The translations under genes and the position numbers were made by a program. Shown in pieces: positions 17,235 through 42,852 of a stretch of 64,000 bases of DNA (position 1 is its first letter; each line of letters starts with the position of its first letter). Under the pieces are notes generated by a model. It worked only from the letters and a program-made list of their open reading frames with translations. It was not told the origin of the DNA and ran no database searches. Origin of the DNA: Geoglobus acetivorans (GTDB taxonomy: Archaea; Halobacteriota; Archaeoglobi; Archaeoglobales; Archaeoglobaceae); the NCBI RefSeq assembly GCF_000789255.1, contig NZ_CP009552.1:124001-188000 (forward strand), read 5' to 3'.

Positions 17235-17255
17235 GTTTTCCACAAAATGGAACGC

Positions 17256-17936
17256 ATGGCAAAAGCAGTCCATGTTATTGCGGTTGGAAGGAACAAAGAG
17301 AGAATCATGGAAAGCCTGAAGTTGAGCGGGTACCCCATACAGAAAGCCTACCTGATAATTCCGGACGGCGAGGGTTACATGGAAGTCGCTGAAGACCTTG
17401 AAAAAATGCTGAGCGTTCTCGTAGAGATCGAAAAAATCAGGGTGAGTGAAACGGACGTATACGATTCTGCCATAAAAATACTGGACCAGATAAAACCAGA
17501 AATAGCTGAAGGCAATAACCTCTTAATAAACGCCACAGATTCTCCAAGAACGCTGATGATCTCACTCTACCTGGTTGCCCAGCTGACGGGTGGAAAGCTT
17601 TACGTGGGAATGCCAAAGTACGAAAAGGATAAGGAAGCTGGGATTGAAAAAATTGTGGAAATACCTGTTCCTCCGCTCAAGAGGATCGGGCAAGACAAGA
17701 TAACAATTCTGAAAGCAATATACGAAAATGGAAAAGAAGTTGACTCAATAAACACGCTGATAAAACTCGTAGATGGAAAGCTCGAAAAGGATAAAGCGTA
17801 TATGGCTCAGAGAGCAAAAATGAGCTACCATCTGAAAGGACTTGAAAAGGACGGATATATAGAAACAAAAAGAGAGGGTAAAAACGTAAAAATACTGCTG
17901 ACACCTCTCGGTGAAGCAATCTGCACGATATTCTAA
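17256..17936 (+). CDS. CARF-domain winged-helix transcriptional regulator
   Basis: 226 aa. Residues 1-140 look like a CARF-type Rossmann domain: AVHVIAVGRNKERIMESLKL at the start and LLINATDSPRTLMISLYLVAQLTGGKLYVG in the ligand-binding position. A wHTH follows (about 145-226: MSYHLKGLEKDGYIETKREGKN). It is a paralogue in architecture of the protein at 40084-40785, with matching KAVHV/..RIIES, NxSxSxRT and SHHL/SYHL landmarks. Such HFX_2341/Csa3-like regulators are thought to switch on nucleotide ligand binding. The start at 17256 rather than 17247 fits the TATA box position. No CRISPR locus is nearby. Confidence 0.82.
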   Translation: MAKAVHVIAVGRNKERIMESLKLSGYPIQKAYLIIPDGEGYMEVAEDLEKMLSVLVEIEKIRVSETDVYDSAIKILDQIKPEIAEGNNLLINATDSPRTLMISLYLVAQLTGGKLYVGMPKYEKDKEAGIEKIVEIPVPPLKRIGQDKITILKAIYENGKEVDSINTLIKLVDGKLEKDKAYMAQRAKMSYHLKGLEKDGYIETKREGKNVKILLTPLGEAICTIF

Positions 17937-22050: not shown

Positions 22051-23013
22051 TGTAGTTTCCTAAAATCATTTCCCACCATCAAACCACCTCCACGAATAAC
22101 TCAATATTCTCTCAGGAGTCAACTTTCTCAAAAATGCTTTATAGGGAGTCTCCAGTTCATCTAAGTTGAGACTCATGTGGGGTCTTTTGTGATTGTACCA
22201 CTCCATGAATTCATCTACTGTATCGAAATACTTGATTTTAGCTTCCAGCGTTCCATAGAACCTCTCTATCTTTCCATTCGTTTGTGGGTGATTCACCCTA
22301 CCCACAATATGCTTAATTTCATTCTCTGCAAGGAATTTCTCAAATTTAGATACTCCTTTAGCCTTCTTCTCCCCTGCAGATGCGTAGAACTGAGTACCTC
22401 TATCCGTCAGGATTGATTCCGGCCTGCCATAATCATCCATGGCTTCTTTTAGCACTTTTATGGCATTCTCAGATGTTGCTTTATCAAATACTCCGTAACC
22501 AGTAATCAGACGGGAAGCATCGTCCAGATAAGCAATTATCCACTTCCCGTTATAGAAAAACCAGTCTGCATGCCATAATTCCATAGAGTGCTTTCTCTCA
22601 TACCTTATCCACTTTTTACGCTTTTTCTTGTTCTTCTCCTCCTTAGCATAGCCGTTCATTCTCAACACTTCGTGTATTTTGTTCTTGCTTATTCTGTAAC
22701 CTCTTTCCTTTAAGATTGTTTGGAGAACTACTGCATTACACCTGTACTCTTCATAGGCTTCTTTTATGGCTTCTATTTCTTCTTCTGATAGTTCTTTTTT
22801 AGGTCTACCTGGTTTCTTTGGCTTTGGTATTTCTCCAGTATCTTTGTATTGCTTGTAGATCTGATTTACTCTTCTTGGTGTTATGTTTTCGATCTCTGCT
22901 ATCTCCTTTGTCGGTGTACCCTTCTCTTTCTCTCTGATAATCCATTTTATCGCTTTCTCGTCAAGTTTCACATGGGGGTTTGTTGAAGTGGGAAATAATT
23001 TCGGGAAAAGACA
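22051..23013. mobile_element. IS481-like insertion sequence, 963 bp, apparently complete
   Basis: The ends are imperfect inverted repeats of about 35 bases: both begin TGT, share TTTCC, then AAAT, then ATTTCCCAC at the same distance (17 bases) from the end, and CAAACC. TGT...ACA ends and a single IS481-type transposase fit that family. No clear target duplication is seen (left flank AACAG, right flank GTTCT). The element lies between the acyl-CoA synthetase stop and the promoter of the next gene, so it probably disrupts nothing. Confidence 0.85.
22066..22971 (-). CDS. IS481-family DDE transposase
   Basis: 301 aa. The N-terminal helix-turn-helix (15-50; KEIAEIENITPRRVNQIYKQYK) is followed by a GRPKK linker, a second HTH (about 65-105), and an rve integrase core with D136 (HADWFF), D190 (ILTDRGTQF) and E236 (HPQTNGKIERFYG), then the WYNHKRPHMSL tail. 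All catalytic residues are present and the frame is intact, so the copy may be active. The gene fills nearly the whole element. Confidence 0.95.
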   Translation of the reverse strand: MKLDEKAIKWIIREKEKGTPTKEIAEIENITPRRVNQIYKQYKDTGEIPKPKKPGRPKKELSEEEIEAIKEAYEEYRCNAVVLQTILKERGYRISKNKIHEVLRMNGYAKEEKNKKKRKKWIRYERKHSMELWHADWFFYNGKWIIAYLDDASRLITGYGVFDKATSENAIKVLKEAMDDYGRPESILTDRGTQFYASAGEKKAKGVSKFEKFLAENEIKHIVGRVNHPQTNGKIERFYGTLEAKIKYFDTVDEFMEWYNHKRPHMSLNLDELETPYKAFLRKLTPERILSYSWRWFDGGK

Positions 23014-28503: not shown

Positions 28504-28804
28504 TTACCAGAGCCGGATGTGCGCTTTTACAAGCAAATCATCACCATCTTGGGTTATGTCAACTTTAGTAATCCTATTCACGCTACTGCACAGTTCATTT
28601 TCTAGTTTAAGCTTGATTGCTCTTGCCATTGAATAAATGACAATTTCATCGTCTTCATAGCACTTTATCAGTTTGGGGGAAAGAGGTATCCCAACGATGG
28701 TGCAATCTTGCTTGGTCATCTGATCCGTTTCCATTGAGCCAGCCAACCTCTTCAAGCTTCCGCATTACTTCCCGATGAACCTGATCCTCAGACTGAAGAG
28801 GCAT
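28504..28804 (-). pseudogene. Third gene of MntA-HepT operon, probably frameshifted
   Basis: Two overlapping frames each look coding in one half. From ATG 28804, which overlaps the hepT end by 17 bases, MPLQSEDQVHREVMRKLEEV and GWLNGNGSDDQAR are read; from about 28715 onwards another frame reads TIVGIPLSPKLIKCYEDDEI, VIYSMARAIKLKLENEL and ends VKAHIRLW at 28504. The total span is 301 bases, one more than a multiple of three, so a single +1 shift near 28710 would join them into one protein of about 99 aa. No family recognised. If there is no shift, the intact part is 28504-28719 (MTKQDC... start). Confidence 0.4.
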
Positions 28805-29138
28805 CCAGATCCCTCTTTATCTCTTTAATCTTCATTTCAAGTTCTGGGAGTTTGTTTCTCACAATATCCCACACAAGTTCCAGATCTACTCCAAAATACT
28901 GGTGGATCAGAATGTTCCTGAGTCCCACAATTTTACGCCACTCGATGTCTGGGTATTTCTCCCTGATCTCTCGTGGCAATGCTCTGCATGACTCGCCTAT
29001 TATTTCGAGATTTCTGACTACAGCATCAACCACAAGCCTGTTTTCTGCAAAATCTTCGAAATCCATGCCGGCAGTGTATTCTTCTGTTCTCTGTATTGCT
29101 TCAAGTATGTCGTCGATATACAGTCTATAATCCCTCAA
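28788..29138 (-). CDS. hepT: HepT-type HEPN ribonuclease toxin
   Basis: 116 aa, all-alpha HEPN (DUF86) protein with the catalytic RNxxxHxY box as LRNILIHQYFGVD near residue 75-87. In the HepT/MntA system the HEPN RNase is silenced by AMPylation of its tyrosine by MntA. Here the gene follows mntA with a 14-base overlap. Confidence 0.92.
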   Translation of the reverse strand: MRDYRLYIDDILEAIQRTEEYTAGMDFEDFAENRLVVDAVVRNLEIIGESCRALPREIREKYPDIEWRKIVGLRNILIHQYFGVDLELVWDIVRNKLPELEMKIKEIKRDLDASSV

Positions 29139-29427
29139 TCGGGACAGCCTCCTTCCAGACTGCGTCTTTAATTCCCGGCTTCAGAGCTTCAACTGTGATG
29201 AGATCAACTTCTGCCCCAAGCAGATCTTCAAGGAAGAATTTGAGGTCCATGTAATTGTCGAAAGTTTTCTTTCCCTTCTCGAATTCCACGAGAATGTCGA
29301 TGTCGCTCTTCTCGCTCTGCTCTCCTTTTGCATAGGAGCCAAAAAGCCAGAGTCTTTTAACTCCAAATCTCTTGATTTCGTTCCAGTGTTTGATTATCAT
29401 TTCCATGATTTCAGTCTTGGAGACCAT
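29125..29427 (-). CDS. mntA: MntA-type nucleotidyltransferase antitoxin
   Basis: 100 aa minimal nucleotidyltransferase. The GSx10DxD motif is present: LFGSYAKGEQSEKSDIDILVEF, and the third acidic residue is in AEVDLIT. It AMPylates and inactivates the partner HEPN toxin. It is first in the operon mntA-hepT-third gene. Confidence 0.92.
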   Translation of the reverse strand: MVSKTEIMEMIIKHWNEIKRFGVKRLWLFGSYAKGEQSEKSDIDILVEFEKGKKTFDNYMDLKFFLEDLLGAEVDLITVEALKPGIKDAVWKEAVPIEGL

Positions 29428-30531: not shown

Positions 30532-30550
30532 AATAGTTGATAGTTTAATT

Positions 30551-30572
30551 AATACTTAAATTTTTTATTCAA
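30551..30572 (-). promoter_or_regulatory. Repeated promoter element, copy A
   Basis: Minus-strand TTGAAT-AAAAAA-TTTAAGTATT. It differs from the other four copies only at the last base of the first block (T for C). The TATA part is centred about 25 bases from the ATG at 30531. Confidence 0.65.
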
Positions 30573-30636
30573 TTATATACCTTCAGTAACCCAACATTTT
30601 TAGATATACTGCAAACCTAATTAATGGGTGTCCGGC

Positions 30637-31718: not shown

Positions 31719-32417
31719 TTATCGATTGCTGATTTTAGTTTTGGGTACAAAACTATCCAGCAATCCAATCAATTCTCCGATGTCCTCAATAACGAAGTCA
31801 GCCCCACCACTTCTCTCCTCAAAGAAATTCCTGTCCCCGTAGCTTGCATACACCGTCATCATCCCCAGCCTCTTTCCCGGTTCAATGTCCCTTCTCAGAC
31901 TGTCTCCGACAATGATTGCTTCCTCTGCCCCAACCCCAAGCTTATTCAGAGCAAGAATAATCGAGTCAGGCTCTGGCTTCCTCTTCCCTGTCATGTCTGA
32001 GGATATAACAGCATCAAAATAGTGCAGAATCCCTGCCTTCTTAAGTCTGCCAATCGCATGGCCGTTCACTGCATCCGTAACAACGGCCAGCTTGAGCCCC
32101 AGTTTCCTCAACCTTTCGAGAGTCTCTCTGACACCCGGGTATGGTTCAACATTTTCCAGCTTAACCCTCTCGTATATCTCGCAGCATTCTCTGAACTTCT
32201 CCTCGCAGTAAACTCCCCTGTCCCTCATGTAGTCGGCTATGTTCCTCACGTCCTCAAAACCGTGAACTCCCCTGAGGAAGTAGCCCAGCAGCTCATGCTC
32301 ATCCTCATTCAGACCGAGGTGCCTTATCACCGCTTTACATGCCTTCAGCTTCGCCTCAACAAAGTCCAGCAGCGTGTTGTCCAGATCGAAAATCACGGCC
32401 CTAATTCTCGATGCCAA
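31719..32417 (-). CDS. HAD-superfamily hydrolase
   Basis: 232 aa with HAD motif I FDLDNTLLD (10-18), an alpha-helical cap (20-95), motif II VVTDA, motif III GKRKPEPDSI and motif IV IVGDSLRRDIEPGKRLGM. It probably dephosphorylates a small phosphorylated metabolite. It is the last gene of a leftward series that begins at 35590 and overlaps the PIN gene before it by 17 bases. Confidence 0.92.
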   Translation of the reverse strand: MASRIRAVIFDLDNTLLDFVEAKLKACKAVIRHLGLNEDEHELLGYFLRGVHGFEDVRNIADYMRDRGVYCEEKFRECCEIYERVKLENVEPYPGVRETLERLRKLGLKLAVVTDAVNGHAIGRLKKAGILHYFDAVISSDMTGKRKPEPDSIILALNKLGVGAEEAIIVGDSLRRDIEPGKRLGMMTVYASYGDRNFFEERSGGADFVIEDIGELIGLLDSFVPKTKISNR

Positions 32418-33408
32418 GCCCCATCAACCTCCTGCAGATGCGGAAATGCCTGCTGAAGTCCTGGTAAAGCTGGTCGTCGAGGAACCTCAGCTTAAGCTCG
32501 TCATGGCTCTTCTTCCCCCTGAACTCCCCGAAAATGACGACGCTGTTCAGCCTTATAACCCCGAACACGCTTGCAAGGCTGTAGATCAGGTCTACTAAGG
32601 ATCTGCCGCTGCAGAAGTTAGCATCGACCGCATGGGGTATTGTGAAGTGGAAGTATTCTATGCTCTCTGCCTCGCAAATATCCGCCATCTGTCTGTCTGC
32701 TGTCAGCAAAACAGGCATCGCAGCCCTTTCCTTCTCAAATCTCCTGAGGGTCCTGACTATTGTGAAGTCGTTCGCCTCTCTGTCGTCTGTGGACTGCTCC
32801 ACACCTTCTATCTCGATCGCATGTTTTCTCAGCTCCCTGTACTCTTTCATGGCTATGTACGCTGCCAGTCTGGACTTCTTCATCCTTCTGTTGATGAACT
32901 CGTCCAGCAGGAAGGGCTGGTATTTTGCGAGTCTCTTCAGCTCCGAGATGGTCGGCTGGGTGTACTTGAAGTTGAGGGAAGACTCGATTTCCTCCCTCGT
33001 TGTTTCAACGAGCATGACCTCTCCATGCTTTACAAGCGATGAGGCTGTAAGGAAACGGTGATAGATGACGTTTGTGTCCGGGCAGAAATACACTCTCTTT
33101 CTCAGGCTGCGGTAGGAACTGAGCATATCCCTGAACCTTTCCATGTTTTCGTAGGTTATAACGCCACTTGCGAGCAGGCACTCCACAAAATCGCTGTAGG
33201 AAGGCACCTCCTCTGCAAGGTGGTCGAAATGGCTCCGCTGCCTTTCGAAATCAACCTCACCCTGCTTGATGCTCAGCCTGTATCCTTCGCCTTCAGGCCT
33301 CGCTTCGAAGAGCTGGAAGCGGGAGTAGAGAGGATACATGACGCTGACGTCATCTACAAGGTTCAGGAGGATCTGGAGTTCATCCACGCTCGCTATTTCC
33401 TCCTTCAA
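32401..33408 (-). CDS. Large PIN-domain protein
   Basis: 335 aa, larger than VapC toxins. The N-terminal 100 residues are archaeal-specific. A PIN core begins at VYFCPDTNVIYHRFL (about 106-120), with a long helical insertion, STDDREANDFTIVRTLRRF for the third acidic site and VLLTADRQMADICEAESIEY for the fourth. Stand-alone large PIN proteins of this kind are probably structure-specific or RNA-processing nucleases. It overlaps both neighbours (4 bases with vapC, 17 with the HAD gene). Confidence 0.85.
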   Translation of the reverse strand: MKEEIASVDELQILLNLVDDVSVMYPLYSRFQLFEARPEGEGYRLSIKQGEVDFERQRSHFDHLAEEVPSYSDFVECLLASGVITYENMERFRDMLSSYRSLRKRVYFCPDTNVIYHRFLTASSLVKHGEVMLVETTREEIESSLNFKYTQPTISELKRLAKYQPFLLDEFINRRMKKSRLAAYIAMKEYRELRKHAIEIEGVEQSTDDREANDFTIVRTLRRFEKERAAMPVLLTADRQMADICEAESIEYFHFTIPHAVDANFCSGRSLVDLIYSLASVFGVIRLNSVVIFGEFRGKKSHDELKLRFLDDQLYQDFSRHFRICRRLMGLGIEN

Positions 33409-33815
33409 ACTACCACCACGTCGAGCTTTCTGAAGTGCCTGTCGAAGGTGTATATTTCCTCTATTCCCTTCTCCGCCATCTTGAGACAGGCCAGAGCGTC
33501 ATTGACATCAACTTCCCTCTCTGATGCAACCAGAGATGCTTTCAGGTAATCATCCGGGCTGACCTCAAAAACTTCAACGTTTTTAAGGCTCATAAACTCC
33601 CTCACGAACTCAGCAGACATTTTCAGGCTGCTTCTGCTGGCTATCATGTTTGCAACCTCGCTGAGGTGCACCACAGTTGTCGCAACCTCTTCGCCTTCCT
33701 GTATCCTCTTCAGTATCTGCAGGGACTTCTTCTTCATCTCTGCTATTTTTCCATCAGGCTCCTTCCTCGGCTTCAGCATCGCGTAAATGAGAACGTTGGA
33801 ATCAACGAACCTCAT
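33405..33815 (-). CDS. vapC: PIN-domain toxin VapC
   Basis: 136 aa from the ATG at 33815: MRFVDSNVLIYAMLK (D5), HLSEVANMIASR (Glu), DVNDALACLKMAEKG (Asp) and EIYTFDRHFRKLDVV (Asp). The in-frame residues upstream of 33815 are out-of-frame antitoxin sequence and are not included. Its start lies 14 bases inside the AbrB antitoxin gene. Confidence 0.92.
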   Translation of the reverse strand: MRFVDSNVLIYAMLKPRKEPDGKIAEMKKKSLQILKRIQEGEEVATTVVHLSEVANMIASRSSLKMSAEFVREFMSLKNVEVFEVSPDDYLKASLVASEREVDVNDALACLKMAEKGIEEIYTFDRHFRKLDVVVV

Positions 33816-34020
33816 ACAGATCCTCCCGCATTTCCTCCCACTCCTTGAGCTCCTCCACCTCAATGCTGTCCGCAAACTTCATTATATTCCCCTTCCTCGG
33901 CAGAATTTCAACCCTGTCGTCGAAAACCAGAACTATGACCTCATCCCCGTGCCTCTCCCTCCACTCCTTTGGGATGACAATTCTTCCGTGCCTGTCCAGT
34001 TTTTTCACGTCAATGCCCAT
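33802..34020 (-). CDS. vapB: AbrB-type antitoxin VapB
   Basis: 72 aa. MGIDVKKLDRHGRIVIPKEW is a clear AbrB swapped-hairpin domain; the acidic tail EELKEWEEMREDLYEVR is the toxin-binding part. It overlaps vapC by 14 bases and sits 45 bases downstream of the CARF gene. Confidence 0.92.
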   Translation of the reverse strand: MGIDVKKLDRHGRIVIPKEWRERHGDEVIVLVFDDRVEILPRKGNIMKFADSIEVEELKEWEEMREDLYEVR

Positions 34021-34065: not shown

Positions 34066-34536
34066 TCATTTGCTTTGAGCTTCCCCTACAAAGTCCCTCA
34101 GGCTCTGATTTGCCATCGGGATCATCATGTATGGCCTGCTTTCGAGCCTCTTAACTGCAAGATAGAAGACGTGATCCATTTTGTGCTTGACAGCGGGGAT
34201 TAATGCAGCGGCAACCAGAGCCTTCCTTCCCGCCGTAATGTCTATGGCTATGTTGCAACCCTCCTCCTTCAGCCTGCGTATAAGTTCGCTAATCATTCTG
34301 CCAGCACTAACAAAATCCGCTTCGGGAACAAGATGAGTCTGAATCTCTGGAGAGATGCCAAACTCCTCGCTCAGGACTCTCATTCCTTCAGCGGCTTTTC
34401 CAAGCTCGTCTGCAAAAATGTCCTCGGCAAAAATGTGGACGATGTCGGGGAAGTATCTGCCCTCCATGAGCACCGCGTAGTATGTGTTCACCAGAGCCCA
34501 TGTGGAGCGGCCGAGCATTGTGATGTAGGCCTTCAT
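34066..34536 (-). CDS. Stand-alone CARF-domain protein
   Basis: 156 aa, single Rossmann-like domain. The first strand is KAYITMLGRSTWALVNTYYA and the ligand-loop segment is IAIDITAGRKALVAAALIPA, matching the D-(I/L)-T-x-G-x-K pattern of CARF domains of Csm6/Card1/ring-nuclease type; FYLAVKRL and MMIPM follow as in those domains. CARF domains bind cyclic oligoadenylates. There is no effector domain, so it could be a sensor subunit or a ring nuclease that degrades the messenger. It abuts the upstream phospholipase-like membrane gene with no gap. No CRISPR genes are in the window. Confidence 0.75.
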   Translation of the reverse strand: MKAYITMLGRSTWALVNTYYAVLMEGRYFPDIVHIFAEDIFADELGKAAEGMRVLSEEFGISPEIQTHLVPEADFVSAGRMISELIRRLKEEGCNIAIDITAGRKALVAAALIPAVKHKMDHVFYLAVKRLESRPYMMIPMANQSLRDFVGEAQSK

Positions 34537-35265
34537 TCATTTCACCTCGAACCATTCATAATTGGTTCTCCACTTTGAATAATTAAAGTCCAGTTTATGG
34601 ATTACATAGCTTAGGATGGCTGAAATAGCTGCAAAATTGATATTAAATGTGGCAAGTATCCATGGAAGAATCACAGCAACGAGATGTATCAACAAAGCTT
34701 GATTGTATTTTTCCTTCAGATTTTCTGGCTTATTGGGGTTTAAAACAAGCTTTATCGCAAGAGACGTAAGAAATGAACAGGCCCTCATTATTTCATCTGG
34801 AGTTCTACCCCTTTTTGTGTTGTAAACTATACTCTTAAACTCGTGGGGGTAGCAGATTATGTTTTTAGCCTCCTCAACGGCTCTGAAATCAATTGGTATG
34901 CTTTTGAGAACTTCCTCTCTTTCTTCATGAGCTTTGTCAGAACGGTATTTGAATATCCATATGCTCTCGGTTGGATCAACAGAATAGTCCTGTAAATAGT
35001 GTAAAGCTCTCCCCAAAGGTTCAGCAATTGACATTCCTGAAATAAGATTCTTTCTTGCCTGCTTGAGATAATTAAAAGCGGTTTCAATAGCCATAGCCTC
35101 ATGGTGTGGTACTCTTCGCCTATAAATTCTCTTTCTTCCGTAATATAAGTAATAATCAGGCTCTCTGTCTGGAAGAACGCTCATTTCAGCTATTTCCATT
35201 GGTTCAGGAAGCTCATAAAACCTGCAAATCTCCAAAGTGATTCTTCTGTGGTCAGCCCACTTCAT
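34537..35265 (-). CDS. Zinc-dependent phospholipase C-like protein with C-terminal membrane segment
   Basis: 242 aa. MKWADHRRITLEI at the N-terminus, RVPHHEAMAIETAF (about 50-63) and LGRALHYLQDYSVDP (about 85-99) resemble the Trp/His and HxxxD zinc ligands of the PLC/S1-P1 nuclease fold, though an HD-type hydrolase is an alternative. Residues 190-225 form one or two membrane helices (LLIHLVAVILPWILATF). It is between an Hjc-like nuclease gene (1-base gap) and the CARF gene (abutting), so all three should be made together. The function as a membrane-associated effector is inference. Confidence 0.65.
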   Translation of the reverse strand: MKWADHRRITLEICRFYELPEPMEIAEMSVLPDREPDYYLYYGRKRIYRRRVPHHEAMAIETAFNYLKQARKNLISGMSIAEPLGRALHYLQDYSVDPTESIWIFKYRSDKAHEEREEVLKSIPIDFRAVEEAKNIICYPHEFKSIVYNTKRGRTPDEIMRACSFLTSLAIKLVLNPNKPENLKEKYNQALLIHLVAVILPWILATFNINFAAISAILSYVIHKLDFNYSKWRTNYEWFEVK

Positions 35266-35266
35266 T

Positions 35267-35590
35267 TCAGAGCCTCTTTACTCTAACTCCGTGCTTTTTG
35301 GCAGCTTTCTTTGCATTAGAACTAAGCTTCGTCTTTCCAGTTAGGATTAGTGTTGGTTTTGCCTTAATTCTTCTGGCCTTTCTCGCAATTTTCGCGACTT
35401 CAGAGCTGGAGACAGTCCTCCCTTTTGCACTGTGCTTGACCTCACCAGCAATCTTTTCTCTTTTTCTTTTTGCTATCAAGTCTATCTCTCCTTCTGGGGT
35501 TCTCTTTCTGTACTGCACTTTGTAACCTGCCTTCTCGTACCTTTTCCCAATTCTGTTCTCAACAACTTTCCCTTTTCTGCATTTTGGCAT
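35267..35590 (-). CDS. Hjc-like / restriction-endonuclease-like PD-(D/E)XK nuclease
   Basis: 107 aa, very basic. The nuclease core is complete: a helix with KGKVVENRIGKRYEKAGY (Glu), then GEIDLIAKRK (Asp) and IAGEVKHSAK (E-x-K). The domain is of the Holliday junction resolvase/Mrr-like type and would cut branched or modified DNA. ATG 35590 is about 26 bases from the TATA part of promoter copy B, so the mRNA is leaderless. First gene of the nuclease - PLC-like - CARF - vapBC - PIN - HAD series. Confidence 0.85.
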   Translation of the reverse strand: MPKCRKGKVVENRIGKRYEKAGYKVQYRKRTPEGEIDLIAKRKREKIAGEVKHSAKGRTVSSSEVAKIARKARRIKAKPTLILTGKTKLSSNAKKAAKKHGVRVKRL

Positions 35591-35610
35591 CAATAATTAA
35601 TAGTAATGCT

Positions 35611-35632
35611 AATACTTAAACTTTTTGTTCAA
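35611..35632 (-). promoter_or_regulatory. Repeated promoter element, copy B
   Basis: Minus-strand TTGAAC-AAAAAG-TTTAAGTATT, centre of the TATA part about 26 bases from the ATG at 35590. It overlaps the last four codons and stop of the broken vapC gene. Drives the Hjc-like/PLC-like/CARF series. Confidence 0.7.
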
Positions 35633-36013
35633 CTTTTATCACTTCTACTCCCAGACTTTCAGCATCTTTCTTCAGCTTTTTATCGTAAGTGGCGAGCTTT
35701 CCGTATTTCTCTGCCACAGGGAGAATCACCATGTCGTTGAACCTTGCTGGGCTCTTCGTCAGCTCAAGGGCCCTCTTTGTAAAGCTGCCATTATCTCCAA
35801 CAATTCTGCTCCTCTGGCTGTCGATAATGCTCTTCACAACCTTCTCAATTTCTTCTCCGCTATACTCTTCTTCCCTGAAAAACCAGTACAGCTCATAGAT
35901 AACGATACTGGGAATGATCTACCTATCCAGCGAAGCAAGGAAGTCCCTTGCCTGCCGGTGAAATTCTGAATCCTGCAGAATAGCGTAGATGAACACGTTT
36001 GTGTCTATCACCA
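35616..36013 (-). pseudogene. vapC: VapC toxin gene interrupted by an in-frame TAG
   Basis: The frame begins at ATG 36013 with MVIDTNVFIYAILQDSEFH and RQARDFLASLDR, hits TAG, and continues in the same frame IIPSIVIYELYWFFREEEYS (PIN Glu), RFNDMVILPVAEKYG (PIN Asp) and LATYDKKLKKDAESLGVEV to TAA 35616. All PIN residues are intact apart from the single nonsense codon at about codon 32. The span of 398 bases contains no other lesion that I see except the need for a one- to two-base check of length near 35838, so translation of the C-terminal part from ATG 35837 is conceivable but would lack the first Asp. Confidence 0.8.
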
Positions 36014-36364: not shown

Positions 36365-36805
36365 ATGGTGTCTCAAATGCCGGAAATAGATGCGGACCTC
36401 GTTAGCAGGAGACTCGCGGAGATAAAATTGCTTGCTGAGGAGCTGAAGGAAATACTTGACATGGGATTGGAAAAGTTTCTCTCTGATTCATATGTAAGAG
36501 ATGCAGCAAAATACAGGCTCCTTGTGGCAATCGAAGCTGCGATAGCCATCTGCAATCACATTGCTGTAAGGGCTGCTAAAGAAGTTCCGGGAAGTTACTC
36601 TGACTGCTTTATTATTCTCGGAAAAAGTGGAGTGATATCCGAAGAGCTGGCGAAAAAGCTGGCAGAGATGGCAAAGTTCAGGAACATGCTTGTCCATGTT
36701 TACTGGAAGATTGACGACCGAAAGGTCTACGATATAATCGGAAAGGATTTATCTGATCTGGACAGATTCATTGATGAGGTGAGGGCGTATCTTGGACATG
36801 GATGA
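36365..36805 (+). CDS. hepT: HepT-like HEPN toxin
   Basis: 146 aa, all-alpha. The HEPN catalytic box is FRNMLVHVYWKID (R-N-x3-H-x-Y), and the N-terminal helices (RLLVAIEAAIAICNHI) match DUF86 proteins of the larger HepT type. Start ATG 36365 is about 27 bases from TTTTAAGTG. Here the toxin precedes the antitoxin, the reverse of the pair at 28788-29427. Confidence 0.9.
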   Translation: MVSQMPEIDADLVSRRLAEIKLLAEELKEILDMGLEKFLSDSYVRDAAKYRLLVAIEAAIAICNHIAVRAAKEVPGSYSDCFIILGKSGVISEELAKKLAEMAKFRNMLVHVYWKIDDRKVYDIIGKDLSDLDRFIDEVRAYLGHG

Positions 36806-37178
36806 TGTGAAAAACAGAATCAGAAATATCCTGAAAGACAGAGAGGAAGTTGTATTTGCATATCTGCATGGAAGTTTTGGCAAAGATCACTTCAGAGACA
36901 TTGACGTCGCGGTCTTCGTGGATGAGGGTAGGGTGAAGGATTTTCTCGAGTATGAGATTGGGCTCTCACTCGAAATTGAGGAATCAATAAAGTATCCTGT
37001 GGATGTCAGAGTTCTGAACTCTGCCCCTCTCAGCTTCAAGTACCGGGCGATCAAGGGGGAGCTTCTGCTCAGCAGAGATGATGAGCTGAGATTCAGGTTT
37101 ATGGAGGAAGTAATACGAGAATATCTGGACTTCAAGCCGGTCGAAGAGAGGATGATCAGAGAGATACTGAGTATGTGA
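36798..37178 (+). CDS. mntA: MntA-like nucleotidyltransferase antitoxin
   Basis: 126 aa. AYLHGSFGKDHFRDIDVAVF is the GS-x-D-x-D nucleotidyltransferase motif and YPVDVRVLNS supplies the third acidic residue. It overlaps hepT by 8 bases. Expected to AMPylate and silence the HEPN partner. Confidence 0.9.
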   Translation: MDDVKNRIRNILKDREEVVFAYLHGSFGKDHFRDIDVAVFVDEGRVKDFLEYEIGLSLEIEESIKYPVDVRVLNSAPLSFKYRAIKGELLLSRDDELRFRFMEEVIREYLDFKPVEERMIREILSM

Positions 37179-37363: not shown

Positions 37364-38902
37364 TTATACCTCCACATTATCTTCGTTCTTAAACACTTTA
37401 ACATTATAAAAATTCTCCACAAACCACTCAGGGTTCGTAGTATGCACCGGAATGATCACATCCGGATCAACCTGCTCGATGATCCACCTCAAGTCGTCCT
37501 TCGACGCATGCCCTGAGGCATGGTAGCCCCTGACGAACTCAGGGGCAAGTTTCCCGTCTTTCAGCACCATCTTGAAGCCGTAAACCCGCAGATTGAACTC
37601 TCTCAGCCAGTTGTACAGCCTGAGAAAGTCAAACTCCTGCTCCTCGCTGAATGCCTCACTTGAAGAATATATGTACGTCCCGCCATCCGGCTTTATGTCG
37701 AGCAGGTGCTTCATGTCGTAGAATGAAAAGCAGAGTATGTAGTTCTCAGGATTTCTTGAAATATCCGCGGGATCAACGTACTTATCTCCCCACCTTTCCC
37801 TGACAACAAGCTCCTCCCACTTGTCCTTCTTCTGCTTCAGCTCATGGTAAATTCTTACATCCTCCATCCTGCAGATCCCATCAGCGCATTCCATCGCATG
37901 GAGCATGTAGGCGTCCTTGGCTGTTACAACAAGCTCCCTCGAGGTTCTCCTCGCAATCTCCATGAAGGTCTCAAGCCTCTCAAAATTTCTTGGTGAGAAG
38001 TCTGCAATGACAACTCCCTTCGACTCTTCAACAGCCTTCAGGCAGTTCTCAAAGACGATCTCTTCAGACTCATTAACATCCTCATCCCTGCCTGTCCTCG
38101 TTCCTTCAATGATCAGAACTGATGCATCCTTCGCCCCTCTAACAAACTCCCTCGATTTATCCGCATATTTGCCATGCATTCTGATGTCGCCGGTGTAAGC
38201 TATGGCTGAATCGCCCCACAGTATGTATGCCGTAGCCCCGTAAATTGAGTGGTCTACTTCGTAAGCATCAATGTCAAAGGAAAGGCCGTGATCATGTACA
38301 TGGCAGAGGTTTCCTGGATTGAGCTTCTTTGCATTCCTGCCTTCCTGCCCGGGTCTGTAGCACATAAACTCAGCAAGCTCGTCAGGTATTCTGTCAGTGC
38401 ATATGAGGTCCCTGCCCTTATAGGGCTTTGACCTGTCTGTAATGAGTATTCTTCTATCATCTTCCATGTGTTCTCTGACATTGAAATACGCAACCTCAGA
38501 GCCTATCCCGGAAGACGAAACATCTCTCATGGCCTTCAGCATTGCCATGCTCATTGGGGAAGCCATGATTGGAATGCTTTCATCGAGCAGAGCTATGTTA
38601 CCGCAGTGATCAACATGGGCGTGGCTCAAAAGAACCGCCTCGACACTGAGCTTGGGATAATCCGACATATTGACATCTGAAGGTATCAAATCTGAACGGT
38701 AGATGTTAAGCCTGGGTATCAGATTGAGGTAAAGGAGATCGTGAATGCCTCTCACACTTCTCTCGTTCAGAAATTCAGCAAAGTATTTCCCGTATTTCGC
38801 AAAGTTCATGCCGAAGTCCAGGAAAACTCCCTTGCCGTTTTCTTCAACGTAGATCTTGTTTCCGCCGATTGTTTCAGCACCATCGTAAACAGTTATTCTC
38901 AT
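37364..38902 (-). CDS. RNase J-like metallo-beta-lactamase-fold protein
   Basis: 512 aa. The MBL motif HAHVDHCGN (about 94-102) and later GDIRMHG, then a beta-CASP-like region with ADFSPRNFERLETFMEIARR and the C-terminal GYHASGHASKDDLRWII, followed by IIPVHTTNPEWF. These are the motifs of beta-CASP nucleases (RNase J, aCPSF), although the insertion before the His motif (residues 36-80) is unusual. It probably processes RNA or DNA ends. It overlaps the rmuC gene by 4 bases, sharing its promoter. Confidence 0.88.
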   Translation of the reverse strand: MRITVYDGAETIGGNKIYVEENGKGVFLDFGMNFAKYGKYFAEFLNERSVRGIHDLLYLNLIPRLNIYRSDLIPSDVNMSDYPKLSVEAVLLSHAHVDHCGNIALLDESIPIMASPMSMAMLKAMRDVSSSGIGSEVAYFNVREHMEDDRRILITDRSKPYKGRDLICTDRIPDELAEFMCYRPGQEGRNAKKLNPGNLCHVHDHGLSFDIDAYEVDHSIYGATAYILWGDSAIAYTGDIRMHGKYADKSREFVRGAKDASVLIIEGTRTGRDEDVNESEEIVFENCLKAVEESKGVVIADFSPRNFERLETFMEIARRTSRELVVTAKDAYMLHAMECADGICRMEDVRIYHELKQKKDKWEELVVRERWGDKYVDPADISRNPENYILCFSFYDMKHLLDIKPDGGTYIYSSSEAFSEEQEFDFLRLYNWLREFNLRVYGFKMVLKDGKLAPEFVRGYHASGHASKDDLRWIIEQVDPDVIIPVHTTNPEWFVENFYNVKVFKNEDNVEV

Positions 38903-39924
38903 TCTTCTACCTCCTCGAACGTGCAGACCGAGGAGTAAAAGCTCTTGAGGTTGCTGAAGGATGTTCTCACGTCTGATGCTTTCTTGGATGCGTTGCCAAC
39001 GTGTCTGAAAAGGATTTCCAGGTTTTCCTCAAGATTTTCGATGTAGTGCCCCATCTCGCTCAGCTTCCTCTGTATCTCCTCAGTCCTCTTTGAAATCTCC
39101 TGAGCCTGAATCCTTGCAGAGACCAGGCTGAGGTACGCGGGGAGCGTGGATGGAGAGGTCAGAATTACTCCCGATTTTGCAGCCTCCACCGCAACATCCG
39201 GCTCTTCAGAAACTAAGTGATAGAAAATCGTGTCTGAAGGAACAAACATGAGCGCAAAGTCCAGGGTGTTTCCCTTTCCAACGTACTTGCTCCGTATGCT
39301 GTCAACATGCCTTTTCACGTCTTTTACGAATTCCTTCCAGTACTTCTCCTTCTCAGCCTCACTCTCCGCCTCGCTGTACTTCCTGAAGTTCTCAAGGGGA
39401 AATTTTGAATCTATGCAGAGATATCTGCCGTCCTCGACTGCAATACACGCATCAGGTATTCCATGACCTATATTCTTCTGAAAATTCAGTCTGTTCTGGG
39501 GGAAGATGTCCTTCAGCAGGCTTTCAAGCTGAAGCTCGCCGAATTTTGCCCTCGAATGCTTTACCTGAAACATTGTTTTCAGGTCAGAGGTTATTGCCTT
39601 GAGATCCGCAGAAGCTTCACTCAGCTTTCCGAGATCCTCTTGGATTCCCAGCTCTTTGAGCGAGGTGGCGAAGGCACCCTTTATCACCTCGGAATTCTTT
39701 GTTATGGCCGATGCGAAGAGACTTTCGAGGACTCCTGCCGAGCTCTGAAATGTTTTTGCAACAGCACCCTCGACCCACTCTGGCAGACTTCTGTTCATGT
39801 CCTCGAATTTTCTGCCAATCTCCTCGATCCTGCTCTCGGCACTTCTCTGTCTCAGTATCACGTAAACCAGAACGGCAAGAACAGTGATCAGCAGCGCCAC
39901 GTCATAAAATTCTGTCACCTGCAT
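38899..39924 (-). CDS. rmuC: RmuC-family DNA recombination protein
   Basis: 341 aa. One N-terminal membrane anchor (about 8-24), a coiled-coil region (30-130) and the RmuC nuclease core: AKFGELQLESLLKDIFP, IPDACIAVEDGRYLCIDSKF and LDFALMFVPSDTIFYHLV. RmuC limits inversions and acts against aberrant DNA in bacteria. GGTGGTG precedes the ATG by 3 bases. The promoter is copy C of the repeated element. Forms an operon with the RNase J-like gene. Confidence 0.92.
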   Translation of the reverse strand: MQVTEFYDVALLITVLAVLVYVILRQRSAESRIEEIGRKFEDMNRSLPEWVEGAVAKTFQSSAGVLESLFASAITKNSEVIKGAFATSLKELGIQEDLGKLSEASADLKAITSDLKTMFQVKHSRAKFGELQLESLLKDIFPQNRLNFQKNIGHGIPDACIAVEDGRYLCIDSKFPLENFRKYSEAESEAEKEKYWKEFVKDVKRHVDSIRSKYVGKGNTLDFALMFVPSDTIFYHLVSEEPDVAVEAAKSGVILTSPSTLPAYLSLVSARIQAQEISKRTEEIQRKLSEMGHYIENLEENLEILFRHVGNASKKASDVRTSFSNLKSFYSSVCTFEEVEE

Positions 39925-39952
39925 TACACCACCTGAAGTTGATTGGTCTGAT

Positions 39953-39974
39953 ATTACTTAAATCTTTTGTTCAA
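39953..39974 (-). promoter_or_regulatory. Repeated promoter element, copy C
   Basis: Minus-strand TTGAAC-AAAAGA-TTTAAGTAAT, same spacing as the other copies. The expected transcript start is about 7 bases before the rmuC ATG, leaving room for the GGTGG ribosome site. Confidence 0.68.
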
Positions 39975-40083
39975 GTTTAAAAATGCTTGGATATAAAACG
40001 CGTTCGATGTATGATGAACGCTGAATGGATTCACAGAGATGCAAATTGGAAAATAAAACCATATCGTTTCAATGCAGAAAACC

Positions 40084-40785
40084 TTATTGCCTGTCCAGAG
40101 CTGCGGTTATCGCCTTTCCAAGCTCTGTCAGTATTATTTTCACATTTCTGCCATGCTTTTCTCTCTTAACAAACCCTGTCCTTTCAAGCTTTGAGAGGTG
40201 GTGGCTAAGCCTGCTCCTTTCACTCTGGAATTCTCTTCTTCCCTTGCCAATTTCCGGATTGAGCTTTATTACCAGCTCATCGAGGGATGATACACCGTCT
40301 CCTATGGCTTTTAAAATCTCCATCTGCTCCCTTCCGGGGAAGCTTACCGGCAGAATGGGCAGCTCCACGATCTCCTCTATCCCTTCTTCCTCGTCGTTTT
40401 CGCCGTACTTCGGAATTGATGAGAACACCCTCGAGTTCGTGATGCTTGCGGCAATGTATGCTGCAATGGCGAACGTTCTGAGAGAGCCGGAGACGTTGAA
40501 CACGACCTCATTGCCGGTCTCCCGTTCTCTCTCGGCTATCTCCACAAGCTCGAGAACGGCGTTCATGATGTTTTTCTTGTCAATCTCCACGATCTCGACG
40601 TCAAATATTGTTTTGAGCTCGTCGGCTATTTCCTTAGCAACTCGTCTGGCCTTCCTCTCACCGCTCGTGTCGGGCTTTCCAACTGCGAGAATGATTCTGG
40701 TGACGGGCAGTTCCCTGAGGGTGCGGATGGATTCGATAATCCTCTCCTTCGTGTGTCCAACGAACGTAATCTGGGTTACAGGCAT
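40084..40785 (-). CDS. CARF-domain winged-helix transcriptional regulator
   Basis: 233 aa. CARF-type Rossmann domain 1-145: QITFVGHTKERIIESIRTLR, VVFNVSGSLRTFAIAAYIAA (ligand loop) and FSSIPKYGENDEEEG. A wHTH follows at 155-233 (RSRLSHHLSKLERTGFVKRE). Paralogous architecture to 17256-17936. The ATG is about 26 bases from the TATA part of promoter copy D. It sits between two other units with the same promoter, so it is the obvious candidate regulator of the element, by inference. Confidence 0.85.
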   Translation of the reverse strand: MPVTQITFVGHTKERIIESIRTLRELPVTRIILAVGKPDTSGERKARRVAKEIADELKTIFDVEIVEIDKKNIMNAVLELVEIAERERETGNEVVFNVSGSLRTFAIAAYIAASITNSRVFSSIPKYGENDEEEGIEEIVELPILPVSFPGREQMEILKAIGDGVSSLDELVIKLNPEIGKGRREFQSERSRLSHHLSKLERTGFVKREKHGRNVKIILTELGKAITAALDRQ

Positions 40786-40804
40786 GTTGATTGATGGAAT
40801 CAGT

Positions 40805-40826
40805 AATACTTAAACTTTGCGTTCAA
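40805..40826 (-). promoter_or_regulatory. Repeated promoter element, copy D
   Basis: Minus-strand TTGAAC-GCAAAG-TTTAAGTATT upstream of the CARF-wHTH gene; the TATA centre is 25-26 bases from its ATG, so transcription is leaderless and the regulator may control itself. Confidence 0.7.
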
Positions 40827-40854
40827 GCTAAATAAAAAATGGAAGAGTTTATTC

Positions 40855-41238
40855 TCACCAGAACTTCCTGTAGGCCTTTTTGAAACAATCACTGTGGTAG
40901 TAGAGGCCCACGTAGTATGCCCAGCTTTCAAACACCGGCTCACCGCACACCGGACAGAGAGCCTTTCCCTCCGGTTCACCCATGTAGCGGACGGGTTTTA
41001 TCAGGTCTTTTTGCCTGAGCTCTTCAACCCTCTCAAGCTTCCTTCTGTCCACCTCTCCCAGAAACACACGATTTTCTCCAGCAACAGCCTCGGCTCTCAC
41101 CACCGTTCCATCACAGACGATCTCCACGTAATCAGCCTTCTCGACGTCATTTCTATTCTTGCGGTAGTACAGATAGTAGGGTAGCTCGACGTCAATAAGC
41201 TTCAGGAAAAGAACGGGAGGAATCCGAATTCTGTCCAC
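40855..41238 (-). CDS. Protein with C-terminal zinc-binding finger
   Basis: 127 aa. The N-terminal 85 residues are beta-rich and unrecognised. The C-terminus has CPVCGEPVFESWAYYVGLYY then HSDCF, a treble-clef/LIM-like finger (CxxC...HxxC). A perfect Shine-Dalgarno GGAGGTGAT (about 41242-41250) is placed 5-8 bases before GTG 41238, so I prefer it to ATG 41244, which overlaps the SD. It is co-transcribed with the Cys-rich gene upstream (20-base gap). Confidence 0.78.
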   Translation of the reverse strand: MDRIRIPPVLFLKLIDVELPYYLYYRKNRNDVEKADYVEIVCDGTVVRAEAVAGENRVFLGEVDRRKLERVEELRQKDLIKPVRYMGEPEGKALCPVCGEPVFESWAYYVGLYYHSDCFKKAYRKFW

Positions 41239-41258
41239 AAACATCACCTCCTCAAAAA

Positions 41259-42278
41259 TCAGCAAACGTGCTCCAGTATGTGGAACAATTTCTTTTCAAA
41301 CTCTCTTTCGAGCTTTTCCGCTATTTCAAATGCCTCAAAAATGTCCTCAGGAATGCTCACACGCAACCCTGTCAGCTCTTCGAGCGAAAAAGTTCTGTCC
41401 TCCGGAAGTCCGTCCCTGAACCTTTCCTCCAGCACGATTATCAGGTCGTAGTCGAGAACGGGCTGTCTGAAAACCTCGAACTCGAGACACTCCACCGATT
41501 TTGGTTTGAAGTCGTCGGAGTTTCCGTACAGCTTATCTATCACTTCCCGTGCAAACTCGTGCAGCTCTTCTGGCTCCAGATACGCTGCAGAGTCAACGAA
41601 AATTCCCAGCTCACGATCGTCCACTGCTCTCTGGAGGGCAAATCTGGCGATTGGCCCGATGAGCGAGTCATCTTCGGAGACGATCAGAATTCTTTTCGGC
41701 ACCATGGGATCGAATATATCGAAGTATGTGCTGTAAAATGCATATCTCTCGTCAATGCGGCAGTTTAACTCTCTGCCAATATCGATGAGCATTTTCTGCA
41801 TTTTTTTCAAGTTCTCTTCATCTCTCACCCTGCCATTCACGTCCAGAAACTTCCCGTTGACAATCGCCATAAGCCTCGCGAGAGCGTAACGGGCATCACT
41901 CCCGAAGTGGCCGTAAACTGAGTAAACCGGAAGGTCGTTCAGAACGACGTCGGTCAGCCCGAACCTTAGGCCTGTTATGAACAGCCTGTCTATTCTACTA
42001 ATCCCAGAGCTTGGATCGCTTAGCACGTAGATTTTGGCACCCTCAAAAACCTCGCCGGTTCTCGCCCCCTCCACGCCGGGCTCCACCACAACAGTTGTTC
42101 TTCCAGCCGGAATAACGAAAAACCCTTCTTCACTCAGGATTCTTCTGATCTCGCCAACGCAGCTCACACATGCTTCTTCTTTAAGCTCCGCAATCGTGCA
42201 CCTGTCTCCTACGGGGCACGAGTAGCCAAAGGTTCTGCATTCTCTCAGCTTCAACCTCTCGTCTTCTACACGCAACAT
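41259..42278 (-). CDS. Cys-rich N-terminal domain fused to LMW-phosphatase-like domain
   Basis: 339 aa, no named family. The N-terminus has C14, C21, C27, C37 and C40 within 30 residues, suitable for a metal or Fe-S site. A middle alpha/beta part (60-180) follows. Residues 195-339 begin KRILIVSEDDSLIGPIARFA and contain LDYDLIIVLEER, resembling the low-molecular-weight phosphatase/arsenate-reductase fold, but the CX5R catalytic loop is replaced (SEDDSLIGP), so it is probably a binding domain. GGAGGTG precedes ATG 42278. The predicted mRNA leader contains a hairpin at 42305-42340. Confidence 0.72.
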   Translation of the reverse strand: MLRVEDERLKLRECRTFGYSCPVGDRCTIAELKEEACVSCVGEIRRILSEEGFFVIPAGRTTVVVEPGVEGARTGEVFEGAKIYVLSDPSSGISRIDRLFITGLRFGLTDVVLNDLPVYSVYGHFGSDARYALARLMAIVNGKFLDVNGRVRDEENLKKMQKMLIDIGRELNCRIDERYAFYSTYFDIFDPMVPKRILIVSEDDSLIGPIARFALQRAVDDRELGIFVDSAAYLEPEELHEFAREVIDKLYGNSDDFKPKSVECLEFEVFRQPVLDYDLIIVLEERFRDGLPEDRTFSLEELTGLRVSIPEDIFEAFEIAEKLEREFEKKLFHILEHVC

Positions 42279-42304: not shown

Positions 42305-42340
42305 GCAGGCAGGTTGTCGGGGCCAGGCAAACCTGCCTGC
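42305..42340 (-). promoter_or_regulatory. 11-bp hairpin in the 5' leader of the Cys-rich gene
   Basis: GCAGGCAGGTT (42305-42315) is a perfect complement of AACCTGCCTGC (42330-42340), with a 14-base loop. The TATA part of promoter copy E predicts a transcript start near 42343, so the hairpin would be the very 5' end of the mRNA, 14 bases before the GGAGGTG site. Confidence 0.6.
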
Positions 42341-42362
42341 AGAAATAGTTGAATATGGTTAT

Positions 42363-42384
42363 GATACTTAAATTTTTTGTTCAA
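42363..42384 (-). promoter_or_regulatory. Repeated promoter element, copy E
   Basis: Minus-strand TTGAAC-AAAAAA-TTTAAGTATC. Predicted transcription start about 42343, giving a 65-base leader, unlike the leaderless copies A, B and D. Confidence 0.68.
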
Positions 42385-42454
42385 GTTTATGTGAACGAAA
42401 TCCACAGTAGAATGAGGGTTATGCATTTAAATACGAATCTCGCCAAACAATTCT

Positions 42455-42779: not shown

Positions 42780-42852
42780 TGGGTCCGCCCGGATTCGAAC
42801 CGGGGACCTTCGCCTCGTCAAGGCGACGTCATAACCACTAGACCACGGACCC
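42780..42852 (-). tRNA. tRNA-Val (anticodon GAC)
   Basis: The minus strand folds as a complete cloverleaf: acceptor GGGTCCG/CGGACCC with discriminator A, D-arm GTCTAGTGGTTATGAC, anticodon stem TCGCC/GGCGA around loop TTGACGA, and T-arm CCCCGGTTCGAATCCGGG. The loop gives anticodon GAC (valine, GUC codons). No intron; CCA is not encoded. A TATA element near 42876-42885 lies about 27 bases upstream of the 5' end. Confidence 0.95.

Follow-up and report, generated by a model that had tools for sequence, protein, structure and literature searches.

A single composite operator-promoter is repeated before five units of the window analyzed here, a stretch of 64,000 nucleotides (bases 124001-188000) from the single-contig genome of Geoglobus acetivorans (1,860,815 bp; G000 in the comparisons), and across the Archaeoglobales the same element precedes the gene of a transcription regulator, in which a CARF domain is joined to a winged helix-turn-helix (CARF-wHTH), as well as recurring nuclease and defence operons. 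The best overall explanation is that the island carrying the five units is probably the local part of the regulon of this CARF-wHTH protein, which, judging from sequence, would be kept repressed, released by a nucleotide and directed against invaders. Innate defence genes of archaea are usually studied singly and little is known about their joint switching-on. With a fixed operator the members of the response can be predicted, and here it flags as candidate defence factors the Cys-rich unit E of the window, DUF2130, tubulin-like proteins and a small protein (c11) encoded before RmuC.

The same composite operator-promoter stands ahead of five units

The original prediction, made from the sequence of part of the window, described near-identical promoters (copies C, D and E) ahead of three adjacent units, and this was borne out: they match the 21-mer core TTGAACAAAAAATTTAAGTAT with two, three and zero mismatches, respectively. 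Allowing up to three mismatches, a search of the whole genome gave five matches, all on the minus strand and all between positions 30552 and 42384 of the window (Table 1), where 0.01 would be expected by chance. A second search used a sequence-only model of 46 positions and was run on the 57 Archaeoglobales genomes that form the comparison set; it recovers the identical five sites (E 4.5e-10 to 4.5e-8; next genome-wide match, E 0.027), and its hits fall into real sites (E < 1e-3) and noise, clearly separated from each other.

The shared motif is real, but the conserved element is longer than had been proposed. Judged from 59 sites of G. acetivorans and related genomes, it is a 46-bp composite with TTGAAC upstream of the B recognition element (BRE) and the TATA box, TTTAAG in the TATA box, and TCAACT downstream. 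The blocks follow the order TAGTTGAAC, a BRE-like run of A, the TATA box TTTAAGTA and then, at a fixed distance, ATCAACTA; the G of TTTAAG is near-invariant. The start codon usually lies 20-21 nt past the 21-mer core, so that most messages would be leaderless. At the sites that precede RmuC genes the ATG is found at +29 and the distance from TCAACT to the TATA box is still the same; since TCAACT keeps this spacing while the ATG shifts, it is part of the promoter and not of the start codon. An inverted pair (TAGTTGA/TCAACTA) surrounds the TATA box, with a second pair (CTTGAA/TTTAAG) inside it, and the half-sites of a dimer may be TAGTTGA/TCAACTA, TTGAA/TTTAAG, or both. That the element is a generic strong promoter was rejected, given its handful of copies per genome and its linkage to the regulator.

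The CARF-wHTH regulator and its co-occurrence with the operator

The proposed reader of the operator is encoded behind operator D, in its own promoter. Its predicted identity as a CARF-wHTH protein was upheld by matches to HFX_2341_N (51.5 bits, cut-off 30) and DUF6293_C (40.5 bits, cut-off 27) in Pfam and to the CARF3 model of PADLOC (373 bits), and it falls below the NCBIfam cut-off for Csa3 (TIGR01884; 47.3 vs 60.2 bits). The AlphaFold2 (AF2) model has a predicted local distance difference test score (pLDDT) of 87, and its top fold matches in the PDB are Csa3 (2wte, and 6wxq/6w11 bound to cyclic tetra-adenylate, cA4), followed by other cyclic-oligoadenylate receptors.

Among 18 orthologues the CARF motif SGSLR is invariant and the recognition helix reads ERSRxSH (for the regulator tree the paralogue rows L064 and L067 were disregarded). 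The operator is found approximately 20 nt before the start codon in nearly all orthologues with intact upstream sequence, a position that implies autoregulation. From these data we infer that the regulator binds the operator. The best sequence evidence of direct binding is a co-variation seen in two related genomes: G051 and G053 have the only aligned regulators with SHL in place of SHH in the recognition helix, and their operators are altered too (TTCAATTGA, with the TCAACT block absent), whereas G052, from the same genus, is canonical in both helix and operator. A paralogue encoded at 17247-17936 (+) of the window, 33% identical to the regulator and present in most Archaeoglobales genomes, has no operator upstream; its gene is convergent with one that reads like a uracil-DNA glycosylase.

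Of the 57 genomes, 25 have operators and 23 have a member of the regulator clade; both are present in 22 genomes and neither in 31, with one genome carrying only the regulator and three only the operator (Fisher p 1.4e-11). In the sole regulator genome without an operator, the regulator gene begins at a contig edge. Given that an operator precedes the regulator gene, this co-occurrence is partly trivial, and it was therefore recounted with operators at other genes only, which are present in 18/23 regulator genomes and 3/34 others (p 1e-7; the 18 and the 3 counted by hand). Both concordant states, operator with regulator and neither of them, are found inside seven genera. As for the remaining genomes with an operator and no regulator of the clade, G005 and G031 are fragmented assemblies and G023 is complete.

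The units headed by the operator in relatives are nearly all nuclease or defence genes. The recurrent ones are the regulator itself, RmuC with an RNase J-like gene, often directly after the regulator, and McrB/McrC farther along the same gene run; NurA-HerA-Mre11-Rad50 is under the operator in three genomes (G003, G019, G030) and is cut after NurA in two more (G007, G012). Further units encode CARF_m1 with PIN and HAD proteins, Mrr/Hjc-like nucleases, DUF2130, a long Argonaute (Piwi) protein (two genomes) and a DruE-like helicase (one genome). The set is thus likely to be a nuclease and defence regulon under an HFX_2341/DUF6293-type CARF regulator. It also sustains the original prediction that a nucleotide-sensing regulator next to nucleases denotes a response to foreign DNA or damage, for the operator of relatives heads McrBC, Argonaute, Druantia-like, NurA-HerA-Mre11-Rad50 and CARF/PIN genes. 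Independent scattering of the genes in close relatives had been named as the result that would speak against such a set; genes and operators are indeed patchy and shuffled between loci, but moved genes usually have this operator at the new site too, and the presence of the set goes together with that of the regulator. Copies of the RNase J-like and CARF_m1 genes have decayed, with in-frame stops or to fragments, in G007 (L088 6598 on G007:C3), G052 (G052:C17) and G050 (G050:C10), which suggests frequent gain and loss of the system.

Other proteins appear in these units. At G010:C42 (L203 9933-17580) the DruE-like helicase (PADLOC 642 bits) and a 955-aa partner without known family share the operator, and a small protein encoded upstream weakly resembles tubulin. 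In G051 a tubulin/FtsZ-like GTPase heads the regulator operon behind the altered operator (L099 2953-4426), and a related protein, c35, combines a DSP-type phosphatase with a weak match to tubulin-like proteins.

A repressor model and its rivals

In the mechanism that we propose, the regulator would sit on the operator, straddling the BRE and the TATA box, and would block the assembly of TBP, TFB and RNA polymerase, also at its own gene. During infection or damage to nucleic acids, a nucleotide made or released as a signal would enter the CARF pocket and free the operator, and the derepressed cell would make the RmuC, RNase J-like and Mrr-like nucleases and the CARF/PIN effector together, joined in relatives by McrBC, Argonaute, NurA-HerA-Mre11-Rad50 or a Druantia-like helicase. 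These products would destroy invading DNA or RNA, and the CARF protein of operon B could let the same signal act post-translationally as well. Provided that the regulator binds, repression appears somewhat more probable than activation because of the operator geometry, the autoregulation and the family precedent, HFX_2341, which is reported as a repressor, including of cas genes (PMC11434293). A role in defence is favoured over one in repair, since McrBC, Argonaute and DruE-like genes are not housekeeping repair genes.

Several points weigh against this reading. The element model was seeded from the window alone and then built from sites within the same 57 genomes, and the Fisher tests ignore phylogeny. 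G023 has an operator before CARF_m1 and no regulator of the clade, and there are operators with no recognisable gene behind them (L071 5128, L096 8802). The operator was not found in the regulator orthologues of Methanomicrobiales, where TTGA-N24-TCAA occurs in only 5 of 13; activation is the role described for Csa3a (PMC7480081) and MM_0565 (PMC7465815); and HerA-NurA-Mre11-Rad50 overlaps both defence and repair.

The same regulator and operator could instead belong to a signal-bound activator that recruits TFB and TBP in what is mainly a host DNA damage response, an archaeal SOS-like system. In Sulfolobus, Csa3a activates adaptation and repair genes and overexpression of Csa3b raises nurA-rad50-mre11-herA (PMC7480081), an operon that is also under the present operator, and the regulon includes RmuC and Hjc-like nucleases besides. 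We consider this unlikely, in view of the anti-invader systems (McrBC, Argonaute and DruE-like genes) that share the operator, of conserved blocks whose arrangement suits occlusion, as they overlap BRE/TATA and the start-site region on both sides, and of a gene set that is patchy and missing from many relatives, unlike core repair. Still less probable is that a strong core promoter travels with mobile defence cassettes of which the CARF gene is a mere member, with no specific binder; the shuffling of patchy genes and operators between loci and the inclusion of BRE and TATA in the element would agree with it, but the conserved blocks reach beyond BRE/TATA, the G in TTTAAG is near-invariant, copies per genome are few, and the element is tied to the presence of the regulator and co-varies with its recognition helix.

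An equally improbable explanation is that this is an ancillary CRISPR regulon in which a Csa3-like factor responds to the cyclic oligoadenylate of type III systems. The fold is nearest Csa3, including the cA4-bound form, and Cas10 is present in ten of the 23 regulator genomes; on the other hand, its presence shows no association with the regulator (p 0.42), the Csa3 score is below the cut-off, and a search for the Cas10 palm detected none in the other 13, including the complete, single-contig G000 and G014, where the signal is therefore probably not type III cyclic oligoadenylate. No RAMP proteins were detected in seven Cas10-less genomes (G000, G014, G010, G011, G003, G004 and G051) by a search that did detect them in the positive controls and in G025. 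A type III CRISPR accessory role in this genome was rejected, given that neither Cas10 nor RAMP proteins were detected. In genomes lacking both, the CARF ligand, if any, would have to come from elsewhere, a puzzle already raised for HFX_2341 in Haloferax (PMC11434293).

The repressor model can be compared with several known systems. As in the HFX_2341/DUF6293 regulator of Haloferax mediterranei, the two Pfam domains score above cut-off, a CARF-like fold is combined with a wHTH, and the protein is present without type III Cas10; HFX_2341, however, is vertically inherited, global and concerned mainly with transport genes, and no operator is described for it in the available part of the paper (PMC11434293), whereas the regulon described here is small and patchy, centres on nucleases and has a defined operator. 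Csa3a and Csa3b of Sulfolobales share the CARF-wHTH fold and the control of defence genes, and Csa3a has a palindromic site near BRE/TATA; in contrast, they are tied to cas genes and CRISPR leaders, and the Csa3a site CAPPa, TCCCN8GGGA upstream of the BRE, is unrelated to this operator (PMC8699464, PMC7480081). MM_0565 of Methanosarcina mazei, likewise a CARF regulator, binds over BRE/TATA in its own AT-rich promoter, but it is CRISPR-adjacent and reported as an activator (including of the casposon cas1-solo gene), and no distinct motif was found for it (PMC7465815). A RmuC-like nuclease, McrBC and a CARF regulator recall Pseudomonas Shield, which is RmuC-based, and CoCoNuT/McrBC with the CARF-containing RtcR; these are bacterial, differ in regulator and architecture, and, in the available part of the source, have no described shared operator over dispersed units (PMC11090510).

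Beyond the order, relatives of the regulator in Methanomicrobiales are 42-51% identical, some of them next to a HAD gene resembling the one in operon B, and have other promoters; in the Methanocalculus-type relatives (L151, L161, L164, L165, L168) TTGA-N24-TCAA surrounds an AT-rich TATA-like box, which recalls the Archaeoglobales operator in another spacing. The archaeal metagenome-assembled genome JdFR-19 has the regulator (57% identical) with a recognisable operator, as well as NurA-HerA-Mre11-Rad50 and an RNase J-like gene, a combination suggestive of exchange between lineages.

CARF-wHTH regulators and all the nucleases named are of known kinds; what appears to be new is a compact and portable operator through which many unrelated genes of innate defence would be wired to a single CARF regulator, in genomes that lack Cas10, and a literature search, which covered few subscription journals and preprints, found no description of such a regulon. 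More broadly, and only tentatively, a master CARF repressor might coordinate unrelated innate immune nucleases through the portable 46-bp operator in answer to a nucleotide alarm whose source is not Cas10. Such a system would be the archaeal equivalent of an interferon-like or SOS-like response, into which new defence genes would be wired by gaining the operator. It suggests that a CARF ligand is produced independently of Cas10, and it makes sensing by Cas10-independent CARF proteins a testable question.

Nuclease units, unit E and neighbouring features

The features of the island are listed in Table 1. No complete PADLOC anti-phage system was found among the window proteins, only single-protein matches (CARF3, CARF_m1, RTasRmuC, CARF_PIN and weak Mrr-type ones).

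Table 1. Features of the island, with positions in the window; operon boundaries were inferred from same-strand spacing with a simple open reading frame caller
Feature	Position	Strand	Remarks
Operator A	30533..30577, core 30552-30572	-	heads truncated Mrr/Hjc-like remnant
HAD-family hydrolase	31719..32417	-	last gene of operon B; HAD_2 123.8 bits
PIN-domain nuclease	32401..33408	-	operon B; PADLOC CARF_m1--CARF_PIN positions 217-445, 69 bits
MazE/AbrB-type antitoxin and PIN toxin pair	33405..34020	-	operon B; PF04014, PF01850 above cut-off
Stand-alone CARF protein CARF_m1	34066..34536	-	operon B; PADLOC CARF_m1 216 bits
Zinc-dependent phospholipase C-like protein (weak)	34537..35265	-	operon B; PF00882 E 0.026, below cut-off
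Mrr/Hjc-like restriction endonuclease	35267..35590	-	first gene of operon B; Mrr_cat 35.2 bits (cut-off 21)
Operator B	35593..35637, core 35612-35632	-	heads seven-gene operon
RNase J-like beta-CASP-type metallo-beta-lactamase nuclease	37364..38902	-	Lactamase_B_2 and RMMBL above cut-off
RmuC-family nuclease	38899..39924	-	PF02646 177.9 bits (cut-off 26); PADLOC RTasRmuC 61 bits
Operator C	39937..39980, core 39954-39974	-	heads RmuC and RNase J-like operon
CARF3-wHTH transcription regulator (HFX_2341/DUF6293 family)	40084..40785	-	Pfam, PADLOC, AF2 fold; proposed operator reader
Operator D	40789..40831, core 40806-40826	-	in regulator's own promoter
Small protein, second gene of unit E	40855..41247	-	C-terminal CPVC...H...C zinc-ribbon-like motif in sequence
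Cys-rich protein, 339 aa	41259..42278	-	phosphatase-like tail without CX5R (weakly supported); ATG at 42278
Palindromic leader, 36 bp	42305..42340	-	between operator E and Cys-rich gene; GCAGGCAGGTTTGCCTGGCCCCGACAACCTGCCTGC
Operator E	42345..42389, core 42364-42384	-	perfect match; heads Cys-rich unit

Behind operator C, the assignment to the RmuC family made in the original prediction is firm, and the protein has the PD...DSK residues; the operator ahead of RmuC is conserved in G025, G027, G011, G010 and G012. Its partner is a metallo-beta-lactamase with an RMMBL domain (Lactamase_B_2 38.2 bits, cut-off 27; RMMBL 25.3, cut-off 21.6), with the HxHxDH motif as LLSHAHVDH and EF2904 (2az4) as best PDB match, but it lies far under the NCBIfam cut-off for RNase J itself (TIGR00649; 64.2 vs 400 bits). 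The gene is present in 25/57 genomes, 21 of them with the regulator.

In operon B, the CARF_m1 and PIN proteins each correspond to one half of the CARF_m1--CARF_PIN model and therefore look like a split CARF-PIN effector. They resemble the CARF-PIN effectors of CARF class m1 modelled in PADLOC, with the difference that here they are split into two genes of one operon with HAD and others, in a genome without Cas10. Full-length copies of the PIN nuclease occur in 13/23 regulator genomes and 0/34 others. Outside this genome, the good operator ahead of CARF_m1 in G023 (L109 5356; G023:C1:762355) follows McrBC, and would be an orphan operator or have another reader. The truncated remnant after operator A (MVNRYRRRRIAEKK...) reaches an early stop; in G014 and G010 this operator heads longer homologues.

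The Cys-rich protein of unit E had been proposed as a novel component with a phosphatase-like tail that lacks CX5R. The loop is indeed absent, RILIVSEDDSLIG standing in its place. The likeness is weak: no Pfam, PADLOC or NCBIfam family matched the protein, the tail had no match in Pfam or the PDB, and a distant homologue of the tail gave a weak LMWPc match (E 0.037; 14.7 bits, below the cut-off of 23.2). The AF2 model, built from three sequences, was uninformative (pLDDT 35). For the small protein of the unit no Pfam match was found, and its zinc-finger match is at chance level. The unit is real and its operator perfect here, but a core role was rejected: the Cys-rich gene is present in 3/57 genomes, with orthologues beyond this genome only in G025 and G030, and its operator is absent from G025, the closest relative, and degenerate in G030C270. 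Unit E is a genus-restricted add-on. A second, seemingly related Cys-rich gene of G030 (contig C46) has a good operator.

The 36-bp leader is 35/35 identical in G009, which belongs to another genus. It has five copies in the 57 genomes (the one in Table 1, L097 12808-12842, L102 216-250, L076 4352-4386 and L071 16711-16746), each near the regulon and just after an operator. It can be folded as one long hairpin or two shorter ones, and inspection by eye, without statistics, showed that in G030 both sides of one stem pair change, from G-C to A-U. A structured RNA leader or a recombination remnant is possible. A dispersed recombination site was rejected on the number of copies, although the leader of G025 has the opposite orientation with respect to the Cys-rich gene and is turned towards another gene.

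About 400 bp past operator E, at the island edge, there is a tRNA-Val(GAC) gene (42780-42852, -), a possible integration point. Two HepT-like/nucleotidyltransferase (HEPN-MNT) toxin-antitoxin pairs lie in or beside the island (36380-37178, +; 28788-29427, -), and an rve-type integrase/transposase gene is found elsewhere in the window (22066-22971, -).

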